This document shows, piece by piece, positions 1,714-24,284 of a stretch of DNA of 25,927 nt. How positions within the stretch are numbered: the first letter of the stretch is position 1; each line of letters begins with the position of its first letter. The notes below the pieces were generated by a model. It did no database searches. It was not told the origin of the DNA and saw nothing but the letters and a program-made list of their open reading frames with translations. The DNA is from a virus. Location: IMG/VR virus record IMGVR_UViG_3300033153_008176, positions 1 to 25,927 of that record. One strand, given 5' to 3'. The position numbers were made by a program, and so were the translations under genes.

Positions 1714-2223
1714 CTGCGAAGGAACCAATATGACAACAGGGATTGCCTCAAAATAGGCGAAAACGCGGAAAAAAGCTTCATAAAATTAGCAATACATAAA
1801 GGTTATTTCATAAGAAAGTCCAATGCGGGCGAAGATTCACATTATCACTGGGATGTTCTTCTAAAGAACAATTGCAAGGTTGATGTGAAGGCCATGAAGC
1901 GCATACAACGTTCTGACGACAGCGTTCAGGATGAGTGGACTTGGGTTGAGCTCCACGGTGTACGCCCAAAGGACGACGGGTGGTTACACGGGGAGGCAAA
2001 ACTAATAGCCTTTGAAACTAGGGATAGTTTTTTGATAGTTAAAAGACTAGACTTAATTGATCTTGTTAACAAATATGTGAACTTTGACCTTACAGCGAAC
2101 TATGCTAAGGATGCTCAGTATAAGGTATACCAACGTAAGGACAGAGCTGATAAGATTACATTAATCGAAACTGATAAGTTAAAAGAAATTCTTTATAAAG
2201 AGTGGAAAAAACTTGACTTTTAA
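1714..2223 (+). CDS. PD-(D/E)XK nuclease-like protein, probable CTG start
   Basis: The frame is open from the stop at 1699-1701 to TAA at 2221. Read from CTG it gives 169 residues. The N-terminal part has GENAEKSF (Glu16/Glu19), then HWDVLL (Asp47) and KVDVKAMK (Asp57-Val-Lys59). This is the helix-Glu, Asp, D-x-K pattern of the PD-(D/E)XK fold, as in resolvase-like and restriction-like nucleases. The first in-frame ATG (1885) would remove the Glu helix, Asp47, Asp57 and Lys59, so it cannot be the true start. The stop lies inside the spacer of the promoter at 2213. The substrate is unknown: branched-DNA resolution or host DNA breakdown are both possible. Confidence 0.7.
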   Translation: MRRNQYDNRDCLKIGENAEKSFIKLAIHKGYFIRKSNAGEDSHYHWDVLLKNNCKVDVKAMKRIQRSDDSVQDEWTWVELHGVRPKDDGWLHGEAKLIAFETRDSFLIVKRLDLIDLVNKYVNFDLTANYAKDAQYKVYQRKDRADKITLIETDKLKEILYKEWKKLDF

Positions 2224-2241
2224 ATATTTCGTGTGTATATT
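2213..2241 (+). promoter_or_regulatory. Sigma-70-type promoter for the structured RNA and tRNAs
   Basis: The -35 TTGACT (2213-2218) and -10 TATATT (2236-2241) are separated by exactly 17 bp. The predicted start is about 2248. TTGACTTTTAAAT is also found in the promoter at 10206 and, as TTGACTTTTAAAA, in the minus-strand promoter at 7552. The -35 lies in the last codons of the nuclease gene. Confidence 0.8.
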
Positions 2242-2247
2242 AGTTTG

Positions 2248-2705
2248 TTCTTTGAAAATAAAGACCTGAGTTAGGGGTGGCCGCTTCTAATGATGGTTGA
2301 GTGAGGTGACTGAATAATCAGTATGCAATGAGCTGATAAGGTACGCATTCAGGGAGTTGTCCCGCAGTGCTTGGTAGTCCGAGTATCTGAATCGCTTCGT
2401 AGCGAGTCTGCGGTATTTTCAATTGTATGAACTAGACTTGAGATCTATGTTCTAACATACCAGTCACTGTATAGTCTACCAGAGGAGTAAAATCTATTCT
2501 GGTTCCCTCGGGAAAGCCTGTGGAAATTACGAGTAATGATGCAGGCAGACTTTAAATGTAACGGTTGCTGCAACGGCTACATGAGGTTACTTCGTGTTAG
2601 GCGAGCATGTAGAGAGAGCAGAACTATGGACACATGGAAAGTCGTGGCTATTAAAATAATTACTCTGGAAATTGCGCGTATGGTAAGCCGCGCCCTCACT
2701 CTTTT
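2248..2705 (+). ncRNA. Large structured noncoding RNA candidate (~460 nt)
   Basis: About 490 bases without a credible gene, between a strong promoter and two tRNAs. The ends pair perfectly over 8 bp: 2299-2306 GAGTGAGG with 2694-2701 CCTCACTC, next to GCGCG/CGCGC (2674-2678/2689-2693). Internal helices include ACTGA/TCAGT (2309/2318), a three-way junction closed by CCGCAG/CTGCGG (2362-2367/2408-2413) holding CTTGG/CCGAG and CGCT/AGCG, a possible pseudoknot GTATG/CATAC (2425/2456) crossed by TAGACT/AGTCTA (2433/2473), TTCC/GGAA (2503/2511), GCCTG/CAGGC (2516/2542) and CTACATG/CATGTAG (2577/2606). Size and place beside phage tRNAs recall the large ornate RNAs GOLLD and ROOL, but I cannot match a conserved sequence of either. 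There is no tmRNA-type tRNA end or tag reading frame that I can see. Confidence 0.7.
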
Positions 2706-2712
2706 TATATAA

Positions 2713-2788
2713 GCTCCCTTAGCTCAGTCGGTAGAGCGGCTGCCTTGTAAGCAGCGGGTCGAGCGTTCAAGTCGTTCAGGGAGCTCCA
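2713..2788 (+). tRNA. tRNA-Thr (anticodon UGU)
   Basis: A full cloverleaf. Acceptor GCTCCCT/AGGGAGC pairs over 7 bp, D stem is GCTC/GAGC, anticodon stem GCTGC/GCAGC with loop CTTGTAA (TGT at 2746-2748), variable loop GGGTC, T stem GAGCG/CGTTC with loop TTCAAGT, discriminator T2785 and an encoded CCA. UGU reads ACA Thr codons. It is 8 nt downstream of the structured RNA and one base before tRNA-Ala, so all three may be cut from one transcript. Confidence 0.95.
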
Positions 2789-3193: not shown

Positions 3194-3669
3194 CACCGCT
3201 TTCACACGTATTATGGGCAATTGCCGTAATGTTCAATGCTTGTGCGGATACTCTTCAATATAAATACAGTAGCTCTGTATTTTCTCTATTTGAAAATGGG
3301 TCTTTTAATCATTGGTATTTTCGAGATCCTGACGATACCTGGCGGAGAAAATATAATAGCACAGAAGACAATTTTATGCAAAGAAAGAAGTTTCTTGGTA
3401 TACAAATACCAGCTTTCTTTTTTGATGGTTGGCATTTATTCAAAATCATAAGACAGCTTTTTACGTTTCTAACTTTCATGGCCTGTACGATATCTGGTAC
3501 TACATGGGTTTACTATAAGATATACACATCTAATGACGTTATATTATATTCGTGGCCAGTCATAGGCATAAGCTTTATTGTGTTTATGATGGTAACAGGC
3601 GGAATTCATGAATTGTTCTTTAAACATATTTTAATGAAAAAAAATTACTCTAAAAGGAGTGTAAAATGA
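3169..3669 (+). CDS. Multi-span membrane protein, unknown
   Basis: A 166-residue protein with hydrophobic segments near residues 4-21 (LFWIVAPLSHVLWAIAVMF), 95-120 (LFTFLTFMACTISGTTWVYY) and 126-148 (VILYSWPVIGISFIVFMMV). A polar region containing HWYFRDPDDTWRRKY lies between the first and second. ATG at 3169 is preferred over TTG at 3157; GGA lies 7 nt upstream. It overlaps the preceding gene by 25 nt and the next by ATGA. Role unknown; an inner-membrane product is inferred from the spans alone. Confidence 0.65.
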   Translation: MENLFWIVAPLSHVLWAIAVMFNACADTLQYKYSSSVFSLFENGSFNHWYFRDPDDTWRRKYNSTEDNFMQRKKFLGIQIPAFFFDGWHLFKIIRQLFTFLTFMACTISGTTWVYYKIYTSNDVILYSWPVIGISFIVFMMVTGGIHELFFKHILMKKNYSKRSVK

Positions 3670-3908
3670 TTAAGTTTTTAACAAAAGAAGAATTACAGAT
3701 TATCACAGATGCTTTGTTATTTTCTTCTTCATGTGATATCAGTGCTAATTTTGATGGTGCGGATTATCTTGATAAGATGGTGGACATCGCTGAAAAGTTG
3801 AAATCCAACCCATCCAAGCGTTTAACGCTTTATGTTGGTGGCGTTCTTGAAGATCCTATACGTTCTATGCGAATCGGTAAAAACTTTATGATAAAACATG
3901 AAAAGTAA
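3666..3908 (+). CDS. Small hypothetical protein (80 aa)
   Basis: An 80-residue soluble protein (MIKFLTKEELQIITDALL...). ATG overlaps the previous stop (ATGA) and has a strong AAGGAG 6 nt upstream. It contains two probable helices followed by a strand (RLTLYVGGVLED). No family is recognised. Its end overlaps the methyltransferase start by 11 nt. Confidence 0.65.
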   Translation: MIKFLTKEELQIITDALLFSSSCDISANFDGADYLDKMVDIAEKLKSNPSKRLTLYVGGVLEDPIRSMRIGKNFMIKHEK

Positions 3909-4569
3909 AAGTCATGTAAAATGCCCAATATGCAATACCGCTAATCTTCCTCATATAAATAACTATCATATATGTAGAACTTGCAATTCTTTTTACCTTT
4001 TTCCAATAAAAACAAAAGAATACACTGATGGGTATTGGGATGCTTTTTACTCCCAATTCTACATAGATTCCGATAGGATTTTAGATTGTCATGATTTAGT
4101 CAACGATAATAAGCATCTTTTTACTGAAGATGTCTTAGAAATAGGGTCTGGAATAGGTTATTTCATAAGGGCTTTAGATGAGATGAAAATACCTAATATA
4201 GGAGTTGATAACAATCACTCGGCTATTACATATGCAAAATTGTATAATCAGGCCAATATAGAGTACTTTGATGTCGAAAACCCATTTGATATGGTTAAAA
4301 TGGATGGTCAAGTAAAGGTCAAAACAGTTTGTATATACAATACACTCGAGTGTTTCAGAACTCCAATACAGACTATGAAGTTTATTAAGCGTTTTGCTAA
4401 GGCTTATATACACATTATTGTAAGTAGCCAGAGTGTTCACTCTATAACTTCTACTAACTTTTGTATGTATAACGGAGAGACCTTACATGTTCTTGCAGAT
4501 AAGATTGACTGCAGGATTGAGAAGATAATCAAAGATGGAGAAAAATACGAGGTTACACTTCGTGTATAA
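3898..4569 (+). CDS. SAM-dependent methyltransferase with N-terminal zinc knuckle
   Basis: A 223-residue protein. Residues 9-29 hold CPIC and CRTC, a two-CxxC zinc knuckle. Residues 79-89 (VLEIGSGIGYF) are motif I of class I methyltransferases, followed by an acidic NIGVDNN that fits the ribose-binding strand. This arrangement resembles the N-terminal part of sugar C-methyltransferases and related zinc-binding methyltransferases, but their usual C-terminal domain of about 150 residues is absent. With the nearby glycosyltransferase and NDP-sugar enzymes a sugar substrate is possible but unproven. ATG at 3898 overlaps the previous gene; the next gene starts within its last 35 nt. Confidence 0.75.
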   Translation: MKSKSHVKCPICNTANLPHINNYHICRTCNSFYLFPIKTKEYTDGYWDAFYSQFYIDSDRILDCHDLVNDNKHLFTEDVLEIGSGIGYFIRALDEMKIPNIGVDNNHSAITYAKLYNQANIEYFDVENPFDMVKMDGQVKVKTVCIYNTLECFRTPIQTMKFIKRFAKAYIHIIVSSQSVHSITSTNFCMYNGETLHVLADKIDCRIEKIIKDGEKYEVTLRV

Positions 4570-7599: not shown

Positions 7600-8061
7600 A
7601 TGGCTACAAATCAGGTTTTTGTGGGAGCACCCCCGAGACAAGGAAAGAGAAAAACAGATTCTCTAATGAAGGGTAAACTTAATGATGGAATGTGTAATAT
7701 AAATATAAATAATTATAAGGCCAAATTTACCTTCCATTCAAAGGGCAAGTCTATTAAGGGTGAGGTTGGGCTGGTTGGGTGTGAAACATCAATGTCTGCA
7801 CAAGTAGTTGGTTCTGTCAACACATCTTTTTTTATAAAACTACATTTAAATGATTTTGAAGTAGCTTTTCCTAAAATAGAAATAGGATCTCTGTTTCATG
7901 ATTGGGAAATTGAAATGAGTGTTAATGGTGTTAGGGGAAGAGTCACGATATCAACTATAGATATATGCCAAGATATGGATGCAATTCGAGAGATTGGAAC
8001 GGCAATTGTTTATCCTTATGGCGGAACTAGGTATGTAGAAATAAATGGAGAAATAAGATGA
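7600..8061 (+). CDS. Hypothetical beta-rich protein, probably leaderless
   Basis: A 153-residue protein, probably mostly beta (YKAKFTFHSKGKSIKGEVGLVG, then WEIEMSVNGVRGRVTISTIDI). No family is recognised. ATG 7600 lies 7 nt after a -10 box and has no Shine-Dalgarno sequence. It is first in the operon with the two NDP-sugar genes and overlaps the next start by ATGA. Confidence 0.65.
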   Translation: MATNQVFVGAPPRQGKRKTDSLMKGKLNDGMCNININNYKAKFTFHSKGKSIKGEVGLVGCETSMSAQVVGSVNTSFFIKLHLNDFEVAFPKIEIGSLFHDWEIEMSVNGVRGRVTISTIDICQDMDAIREIGTAIVYPYGGTRYVEINGEIR

Positions 8062-9014
8062 AAGCTCTTTTATTAGGTGGTGGTGGTTATTTTGGAACCC
8101 GTTTGGCAAGTTTTTTAACGGAATTAGGAGTTAATATAACTGTTGTTGACTTGTTTTGGTTTGGTAATCATATAGAGGAAGGAATTAAAACGATTCATGG
8201 AGACGTAAGTGATGTTACTGTGGATCAGTACGGTAGTTTTGATGTGGTTGTTTATTTGGCTGGTCTTTCAAATGATCCAATGGCTGAATTCAGCCCGAGA
8301 TTAAATTACATACACAATGCATCATATCCAATGCTCTGTGCCACCAGGGCAAGAAAGGCTTGTGTAAAAAGGTTTGTATTTGCCAGCTCGTGCTCTATAT
8401 ATGGTAGGGGCCATATGTGTGGTGAGTATGATCAAATCAAAACAGACTATCCTTACGGTATATCTAAATGGCAAGCAGAACAGGGCTTAGAGCTTCTCGA
8501 GACAGAAGACTTTAGAATAACTTTTCTGCGCAAAGGTACGTTGGGTGGTCATTCACCTAGAATGAGGTTTGACATTGCCGTTAATAGAATGTTTAAAACG
8601 GCTATGGTTGATAATAAAATTACCGTATATGACCCATCGGCATTCCGTCCACTTCTCGACATGGATGACGCCCTCAGGGCATACGCAAGTGCTATCACTG
8701 CGCCCCCCAATGTCCACGGCCCGTTCAACATCATTTCGGAGAATGTAACCATACTGGACTTGGCAATGAGGATGAAGCAGTATATGGAAGTGAAACACAT
8801 GACCACATCTATACAGATCAACAACTTACAGCAGAAAGAAGTTCGTGATTACAGTGCTAACTGGAATAATGCTATGAATGATTTGGGGTTTCAGGGTACG
8901 AGTACACTAGAATATACCATCGATGAACTGTGGCGAAATTGTGATAAGTATGACTATAACGACACAAACACTGTAAATATGGAAGTTTTCACAAGAATAG
9001 AGAGTACAATATGA
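8058..9014 (+). CDS. NAD(P)-dependent NDP-sugar epimerase/dehydratase
   Basis: A 318-residue extended short-chain dehydrogenase/reductase. GGGGYFG (residues 7-13) is the nucleotide-binding glycine motif, VVDLFWFGN the strand 2 region, GDV (48-50) an adenine contact, FASSCSIYG (108-116) the Ser motif and YGISK (133-137) the catalytic Tyr/Lys pair. RPLLDMDDALRAY matches the conserved C-terminal 'R.yvhVdDva.a' segment. The family changes NDP-hexoses by epimerisation, dehydration or reduction. It overlaps the RmlD-like gene by ATGA, so the two probably act in series on one sugar. Confidence 0.85.
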   Translation: MKALLLGGGGYFGTRLASFLTELGVNITVVDLFWFGNHIEEGIKTIHGDVSDVTVDQYGSFDVVVYLAGLSNDPMAEFSPRLNYIHNASYPMLCATRARKACVKRFVFASSCSIYGRGHMCGEYDQIKTDYPYGISKWQAEQGLELLETEDFRITFLRKGTLGGHSPRMRFDIAVNRMFKTAMVDNKITVYDPSAFRPLLDMDDALRAYASAITAPPNVHGPFNIISENVTILDLAMRMKQYMEVKHMTTSIQINNLQQKEVRDYSANWNNAMNDLGFQGTSTLEYTIDELWRNCDKYDYNDTNTVNMEVFTRIESTI

Positions 9015-9850
9015 GAATAGTTATCATTGGTTACACGGGTATGCTTGGTAGTGACCTATTTACCTATTTGACTGCCAAGCGTCAAGATGTATTTGGGCTT
9101 GATCATAGCGACATAGAGGTTGCCAGCCCAGATACCTTTGGTGTAATGGATGACTTCAAGCCAGAAATCATAATAAATACGTCTCATTGTAATTTTGAAG
9201 ACAGCGAGGCCGATCAAAAACGTGCTTTCGAGGTTAATACAGAGGGAGCAGGGAACGTAGCAAAGTATGCCCAAAAGACTGGTGCTTCAGTAATTCATTT
9301 TAGTTCCAGTTATGTTTTTGATGGTTCTAGAAATGTTTATCTCAATGAAGACGAGGCACCAGGCCCAATAAATGTATATGGAGTTTCAAAGCTTGCTGGT
9401 GAGTATATGGTAAAGAATTATTGTGAAAAGCACTTTATAATAAGGACTGGCGGGTTATATAGTAAGGTACAAACCAGAAAAGGGCCTAGCCATATTCATG
9501 ATATAATCCTTTCAGGTCAAGATAAAACTATTGATGTTTTTGGTAATTATCATTTTTCTCCTACTTGGACTTTACAGGTTTGTAAGAATTTAGTGCATCT
9601 GTTTGATTCTGGGGAGTACGGACTTTATCATATGACATCAACTGGTGACTGTAGTTATTATGATTTTGTGAGTTTGATCATAGAGGAGCTTAGGCTTCCC
9701 GCTGAGGTTGTAAAGGTTGATAATGAATTAGGGAACACACCTATGCGTAGCTTGTTACATAATAAGAACCTTGAAGTTATCGGATTAAATAAAATGGATT
9801 TTTGGGATGCAGCCTTAAAGAGATGTTTACTCAATTTTGAGGTATCATGA
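9011..9850 (+). CDS. dTDP-4-dehydrorhamnose reductase-like (RmlD family)
   Basis: A 279-residue protein of RmlD length. Features are GYTGMLG (7-13) for NAD(P)H, DHSDIEV (31-37), FKPEIIINTSHCNFEDSE (the 'kPDvViNaaAyt.VD.aE' motif), HFSSSYVFDG (96-105), and NVYGVSKLAGE with Tyr123 and Lys127 as catalytic pair. RmlD reduces dTDP-4-keto-rhamnose to dTDP-rhamnose. The canonical Ala-Ala of the third motif is replaced, so the exact sugar may differ. It is in an ATGA-coupled chain with the epimerase and the Ser/Thr-tailed protein. Confidence 0.82.
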   Translation: MRIVIIGYTGMLGSDLFTYLTAKRQDVFGLDHSDIEVASPDTFGVMDDFKPEIIINTSHCNFEDSEADQKRAFEVNTEGAGNVAKYAQKTGASVIHFSSSYVFDGSRNVYLNEDEAPGPINVYGVSKLAGEYMVKNYCEKHFIIRTGGLYSKVQTRKGPSHIHDIILSGQDKTIDVFGNYHFSPTWTLQVCKNLVHLFDSGEYGLYHMTSTGDCSYYDFVSLIIEELRLPAEVVKVDNELGNTPMRSLLHNKNLEVIGLNKMDFWDAALKRCLLNFEVS

Positions 9851-10203
9851 GTCTTATTAGTAGGGCTCTTGGTGGTGTTGCTCAAAATATAGTAGGGCTT
9901 GGTGGTGTTGCTCAAAATATAGTAGGGCTTGGTGGTGTTTTTACTCAAACGGCACAAGCTGCTAAACAAACCGCTTTAAGTGCACAAGATCTTTCAGATG
10001 CATTGGCGATGTGGGGAGTACCAAGATATAGAGGTAAGAGAAAATCTCTTTTTAAATGTGATGCTAACGTTTGGGGATATTGGCAAGATATGAAAACTAG
10101 ACACATCACGATAGATGGTTTATATAAAGAGGACTTTGTATCACCACCCTTTACTGGTACAACCAGCTCTACCAGCTCTACCAGTACAACGAGTACAATT
10201 TAA
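9847..10203 (+). CDS. Repeat protein with Ser/Thr-rich C-terminal tail
   Basis: A 118-residue protein in three parts. Residues 7-31 are ten-residue repeats (LGGVAQNIVG, twice plus a partial), encoded by an exact 30-bp DNA duplication. The middle (65-100) has GKRKSLFKCDANVWGYWQDMK, a compact polar domain. The last ~16 residues are only Thr, Ser and one Gly/Ile. The Gly/Ala/Val repeats may form an amphipathic or packing helix. ATG overlaps the RmlD-like stop. The tail type recurs in the protein at 24075. Virion location and glycosylation are guesses from the tail and from the neighbouring sugar genes. Confidence 0.65.
   Translation: MSLISRALGGVAQNIVGLGGVAQNIVGLGGVFTQTAQAAKQTALSAQDLSDALAMWGVPRYRGKRKSLFKCDANVWGYWQDMKTRHITIDGLYKEDFVSPPFTGTTSSTSSTSTTSTI
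9871..9940 (+). repeat. In-frame 30-bp tandem repeat
   Basis: 9871-9900 and 9901-9930 are identical (GGTGGTGTTG, CTCAAAATAT, AGTAGGGCTT) and a partial third copy starts at 9931. Part of the unit also precedes 9871. The exact identity suggests a recent slippage duplication. Confidence 0.95.
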
Positions 10204-24074: not shown

Positions 24075-24284
24075 ATGAGTAACAAATTATTTCCGACTGG
24101 CAAGTCCATCACACTGAACTATGCCGACAAGTTGAATGTTGCCGATGCTAGTGATAAGGATCAGATAAAAACGATAACTATTGAAGACCTTATTAACAAA
24201 ATTGGCCTTACAACCAGTACCAGTACCAGTACAAGTTCAAGTACAAGTACGAGTACTTCTAGTACATCTAGTACAACTACATAA
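24075..24284 (+). CDS. Short protein with long Ser/Thr-only C-terminal tail
   Basis: A 69-residue protein from ATG 24075, with AGGAGA about 7 nt upstream. Residues 1-45 form a small polar domain (MSNKLFPTGKSITLNYADKL, then IKTITIEDLINKIGL). Residues 46-69 are only Ser and Thr, coded by a degenerate AGTACN-type six-base repeat. A similar tail ends the protein at 9847. It lies in the head gene cluster just before a terminator. A small decoration or fibre-related part is possible; I recognise no family. Confidence 0.65.
   Translation: MSNKLFPTGKSITLNYADKLNVADASDKDQIKTITIEDLINKIGLTTSTSTSTSSSTSTSTSSTSSTTT

Follow-up and report, generated by a model that had tools for sequence, protein, structure and literature searches.

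What kind of element lies at positions 2248-2705 of the viral record IMGVR_UViG_3300033153_008176, immediately 5′ of a tRNA gene, and does it act on its neighbors or on its own? We call the window the whole stretch analyzed here (25,927 nt, positions 1 to 25,927 of this record), and all coordinates are positions in it. The strong promoter that a preliminary description had placed upstream of a structured RNA was recovered, and its two hexamers are conserved in both homologues of the locus, G001 and G003. From its position, a transcript would be expected to start near 2248. The order promoter, RNA, tRNA-Thr(UGU) is common to the window, G001, and G003, i.e., to three related phages. Two tRNAs had been announced 3′ of the RNA: tRNA-Thr stands, being identified by both ARAGORN and Rfam, while the second is without support. 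Indeed, the tRNA-Ala-like stretch (around 2789-2866) is called by neither ARAGORN nor the Rfam tRNA model and corresponds to an insert missing from G001 and G003. This stretch, located between tRNA-Thr and the next ORF, resembles a tRNA-Ala(UGC) with an odd D-arm and carries CATG on each side. The ORF that comes after tRNA-Thr has no PHROG match, and the interval separating the closing helix of the RNA from the tRNA showed no terminator-like hairpin.

Considering the window sequence alone, the structure is barely beyond chance, which is weak evidence. The folding energy of the RNA gives z = -1.56, 8 of 100 shuffles folding as well; complementary 8-mer pairs number 3 for 1.4 expected; and 6.3% of shuffles contain a perfect 8-bp helix whose arms are separated by 350 nt or more. 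We found the two homologues via their terminase (97% identical for G001 and 81% for G003), and their RNAs are, respectively, 90% and 74% identical to that of the window. A 126-pair model applied to the three sequences is paired at 98.4%, and 40 pairs are changed on both sides, against a mean of 14.8 in shuffles and 1-5 in slid controls; the structure being largely derived from these same three sequences, the slid control is flattering, and the shuffle control and the family-wide test presented below share this circularity to a lesser degree. The perfect 8-bp helix that had been proposed to join the RNA ends, with 387 nt between its arms, is present, and where its arms differ among the homologues the changes are compensated (8 of 8 pairs kept, with three double changes and one single). 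The many internal helices proposed are also there: P1 keeps 9 of 9 pairs, 8 of them with double changes, in an almost wholly rewritten sequence, and 5 of the 7 pairs of the P3 stem are changed on both sides. Because the homologues keep the pairing with changes on both sides, we take the structured RNA at 2248-2705 as solid: it is real. Its parts are collected in Table 1.

Table 1. Features of the RNA locus, in window coordinates.
Feature	Position	Strand	Remarks
Sigma-70-like promoter TTGACT-17-TATATT	2213..2241	+	-35 TTGACT 2213-2218, 17-nt spacer, -10 TATATT 2236-2241; 10 of 12 consensus positions (1.8 such sites expected by chance alone in the window); hexamers kept in G001 and G003
5′ leader hairpin UCUUU-GAAAAU-AAAG(A)	2249..2264	+	near-identical in all three homologues; read from the sequence
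P1 hairpin	2270..2291	+	immediately before the closing helix; found in most family members
Rfam manA RF01745 match	2286..2470	+	26.2 bits, E 1.1e-4
Closing helix, 5′ arm GAGUGAGG	2299..2306	+	same helix as the terminal one in manA and its relatives
Core strand GUGACUGAAUAA	2306..2317	+	A2309-U2342 and C2310-G2341 pair
P2 hairpin UCAGU...GCUGA	2318..2336	+	2 double changes in 3 sequences
Core strand UAAGGU	2337..2342	+	manA match and family alignment
P3 domain	2344..2412	+	stem 2344-2350/2406-2412 around three hairpins; computed fold
Window-type extra domains	2417..2651	+	hairpin 2417-2443 and highly conserved domain 2471-2651
PT hairpin GCGCG-UAUGGUAAGC-CGCGC	2674..2693	+	UU before; abuts the closing 3′ arm on its 5′ side
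Closing helix, 3′ arm CCUCACUC	2694..2701	+	followed by UUUUUAUAUAA
tRNA-Thr(UGU)	2713..2788	+	ARAGORN and Rfam; 11 nt past the closing helix; also follows the RNA directly in G001 and G003

To which family does this RNA belong? At Rfam thresholds, tRNAs alone were matched in the window. A relaxed search with all 4227 Rfam families identified manA (RF01745), the E-value given in Table 1 being corrected for 4227 families; up to E 10, no other model matched the RNA, the remaining matches falling on the tRNA region. G001 also matches the manA model (E 2.3e-7). The gathering threshold of manA, 55.2 bits, is missed by the window, by G001 (28.8 bits), and by G003 (24.9 bits). The match places the core correctly, and its 3′ end is misplaced because the extra domains intervene. 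The window RNA shares with manA the core GUGACUGAAUAA-hairpin-UAAGGU with its AC/GU pair, P1, an enclosing terminal helix (to which the proposed 8-bp helix corresponds) whose arms are further apart than in compact manA, a hairpin-bearing P3 domain, a hairpin before the 3′ arm, and its phage-borne nature. On the other hand, it scores below the cut-off, lies outside the cyanophage branch, and carries extra domains that are absent from compact manA RNAs and add about 230 nt; among viral contigs, G003 alone has a match to a 19-nt piece of them. It also belongs to a promoter-RNA-tRNA unit instead of being placed in a 5′ UTR before mannose, nucleotide, or photosynthesis genes, since tRNA-Thr comes next. 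The best description of the window RNA is that of a new and enlarged variant inside the manA superfamily; it is not filed as RF01745. The suggestion of a new family was not quite right: the RNA forms a divergent, enlarged branch of this superfamily.

In the manA structure, A4 and C5 of the core pair with U and G of UAAGGU. The G003 core is GUGGCUG with UAAGGC, i.e., the A-U pair of the window is replaced by G-C. We searched viral sequences for this G-C double variant and for the A-C single variant. The double variant gave 109 raw matches, 81 of them with a proper P2 hairpin, against 116 raw matches and one with P2 for the single variant, the remaining A-C matches being mostly accidental TAAGGC inside the manA P2 loop. 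The same A-U versus G-C difference appears again between a Virgibacillus plasmid homologue and the phage contig L271 (76% identical). The computed fold also contains a helix between GUGACUG (2306-2312) and the fully conserved CAGUCAC (2461-2467), whose formation excludes the core pair. We set this helix aside because it competes with the better supported, family-wide A-U/G-C core pair; the two pairings might represent a possible conformational switch.

The core GUGRCUGAAUAA-hairpin-UAAGGY is present in more than 200 phage contigs. A core scan of viral contigs gave at least 120 matches, mostly marine manA, and the divergent A-U form was found in 41 viral contigs or loci. When searched in 257 Gb of cellular genomes, the divergent A-U pattern gave three matches, judged to be due to chance, in seemingly cellular coding or intergenic sequence and without structure. 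Hence, the superfamily is phage-borne. We curated 45 members with their ends and aligned 22 of them (alignment A4): 93.2% of cells pair, and the covariation reaches 0.696, against 0.186 for shuffled and at most 0.158 for slid alignments. The parts common to the family are P1, the terminal helix, the core with P2 (several pair types per position), the P3 domain, and PT directly before the 3′ arm (consensus UUG-RGGUA...AAUCC), and the window RNA has every one of them. Most members are compact (125-190 nt). A model named R1, built without the window, G001, and G003, gives 39.4 bits for the window (E 6e-9), 42.4 for G003, and 34.9 for G001, well above the 19-23 bits of chance core-pattern matches in bacterial genomes; the pattern that served to collect its training sequences had been suggested by the window and manA, so the Rfam match is the cleaner independent test. 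R1 found one copy per record in ten records, and a blastn of the window RNA and of four RNAs of the G-C branch against annotated phages gave nothing useful. In another locus, L327, two RNA copies lie in tandem (3288-3442 and 3489-3661), and the second copy carries GUGACUGAAUAACGC...GCGUAAAGUA as a variant core.

The size of the RNA and its tRNA setting had suggested GOLLD and ROOL, and both of these features hold. The Rfam models themselves do not follow: neither GOLLD nor ROOL (RF03087) matches the window up to E 10, and ROOL matches neither G001 nor G003 at this limit. GOLLD is likewise a large phage RNA near tRNAs, with no common motif seen. ROOL shares with our RNA its large size, phage origin, terminal helix, and frequent proximity to tRNAs, but measures about 500-660 nt, has its own central domains, and forms known octamers. 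The link between them is L271: core, P2, and terminal helix are the same in this member, which scores 39.9 bits with R1 and matches ROOL from end to end (86.5 bits, E 3e-16), under the ROOL gathering score of 99.1. As L271 matches ROOL, the initial comparison may still hold at a more distant level. This bridge between ROOL and manA rests on one lineage, L271 and its near-identical copy L295; the 35 further records searched, among them those of the window, G001, and G003, gave no ROOL match, and neither did the Virgibacillus homologue. The L271 RNA (3733-4243) and that homologue (L437, 3001-3523, on the 313-kb Virgibacillus halodenitrificans plasmid NZ_CP033050.1, Bacillota) are 76% alike, and both carry the manA-type core. 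We tentatively suggest that manA, the window RNA, and ROOL could be branches of one ancient phage RNA superfamily with a common core and modular extra domains, in which manA would be free-standing and ROOL-like and the window type mid-sized between compact manA and the cage-forming RNAs. Other known RNAs were set aside. T4 RNA C and RNA D, stable RNAs of the T4 tRNA cluster, are also noncoding RNAs beside phage tRNA genes; their locus has no GUGRCUGAAUAA core, as read from the sequence, and no R1 match. RNase P, tmRNA, and group I introns have no Rfam match in the RNA itself.

Earlier workers already noticed tRNA neighbors of manA (PMC3692125). Among 77 dereplicated members, 14 have a same-strand tRNA within 300 nt, compared with 1.6% for positions drawn at random from a related set of loci that had not been dereplicated; tRNA adjacency is enriched yet not universal. 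Some members (L067, L223, L239, and L284) lie between two tRNA genes, and eight loci (L080, L127, L226, L240, L262, L266, L283, and L286) contain tmRNA or permuted tmRNA genes, some of these calls being matches to the tRNA-like domain only. In isolated cyanophages, manA is found after gp23, before gp32, and beside purL, ferredoxin, transaldolase, and unknown genes, so that many copies share no common neighbor-gene theme. Directly past the closing helix, 24 of 45 members have a U-rich stretch (12.8% of control positions do), which fits an RNA end just after this helix. Two further elements were observed past members of the family. L123, L125, and L129 contain a second probable structured RNA, closed by ACACAUG/CAUGUGU about 170-240 nt past the core, between the manA-like RNA and tRNA-Pro. 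Many cyanophage loci (e.g., L017, L058, and L060) have, shortly past manA, a conserved hairpin GACCUAAGAUGCAAC...GGGCAGAUGGUC with a U-run, which resembles a shared terminator or another small RNA.

Taken as a whole, this locus probably encodes a phage RNA of about 450 nt, free-standing and acting in trans, which is an enlarged and divergent member of the manA superfamily and is freed from a transcript that it shares with a tRNA. Its own promoter would drive one transcript, carrying the RNA and tRNA-Thr. The RNA would adopt a multibranched fold that the 8-bp end helix locks, and would be freed either by RNase P, cutting where the tRNA begins, or by transcription termination within the U-run UUUUUAUA. 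It could then persist and act in trans, as a stable, abundant RNA or scaffold during infection. We infer a trans rather than a cis action because members lie between two tRNAs and the cyanophage neighbors are unrelated, and the tRNA and tmRNA company suggests that this action would most likely take place in or near the translation machinery instead of switching an adjoining gene. The score below the Rfam manA cut-off counts against this reading, as does a tRNA adjacency that is enriched but does not extend to all members.

The main rival is a cis-regulatory, riboswitch-like leader, in which the RNA would sense a ligand and control tRNA-Thr and the following ORF. We consider it rather unlikely, even though manA is listed as cis-regulatory and possible riboswitch (PMC2864571), a role proposed by both Rfam and its 2010 discovery paper, the RNA stands 5′ of tRNA-Thr and the ORF in all three phages, and many cyanophage copies are 5′ of genes. 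Indeed, the genes downstream of members have no common theme, the members enclosed by two tRNAs have no adjoining mRNA, the nearest ORF is for some members on the opposite strand (according to crude ORF calls), and the terminator-like hairpin sought between the closing helix and the tRNA is missing. An effect on the downstream operon is nonetheless possible, an ORF coming after the tRNA. Still less likely, the RNA could self-assemble into a large RNA-only complex of the ROOL or GOLLD type. ROOL, which occurs in phages near tRNA islands, assembles into octameric cages, and in one Ligilactobacillus strain its abundance equals that of 16S rRNA (PMC12286853); the window RNA fits in size and setting, and L271 matches both ROOL and R1. 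Against this, ROOL matches neither the window nor G001 and G003, the superfamily is mostly compact, and the window type shows no identifiable kissing loop. It is improbable that the RNA serves the tRNA operon as a leader for processing or stability, functionless once cut off: the tRNA-Thr directly following the RNA in the three phages is what such a leader predicts, but a tRNA is lacking near most members, and a leader of this kind would not require inner domains so well conserved. Finally, a coding stretch or chance fold, to which the weak single-sequence folding score, a 58-aa ORF (2536-2712), and a core reading GUG ACU GAA UAA could point, is already contradicted by the covariation, both family-wide and among the three sequences, by a 2-nt indel among homologues inside the 58-aa ORF, and, for the core mini-ORF, by the stop-less natural core variants GTGACTGAACAA, GTGACTGAAAAA, and GTGACTGAATCA.

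Since 2010, manA has been catalogued as a cis-regulatory motif of marine origin and as a possible riboswitch. Should it instead be a branch of a phage-wide family of free-standing RNAs, this label and the search for a ligand need reconsidering, and the Rfam threshold would mostly miss such a family, given that the manA cut-off is reached by 4 of 20 loci of the G-C branch. Moreover, a compact core of less than 200 nt would be much more convenient than ROOL or GOLLD for probing, structure determination, and deletion, and the role of the ornate RNAs of phages would become testable in the cultured cyanophages that carry manA (P-SSM2, P-HM2, and S-SSM5).

Elsewhere in the window, 5.4 kb from the RNA, two adjoining ORFs (8058-9850) resemble nucleotide-sugar epimerase/reductase genes, the kind of gene to which the manA and wcaG motifs were linked. 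Two unrelated ORFs (9847-10203 and 24075-24284) end in similar C-terminal tails made only of Ser and Thr, TTSSTSSTSTTSTI and STSTSSSTSTSTSSTSSTTT, and the one at 9847-10203 also carries tandem GGVAQNIVGL repeats.
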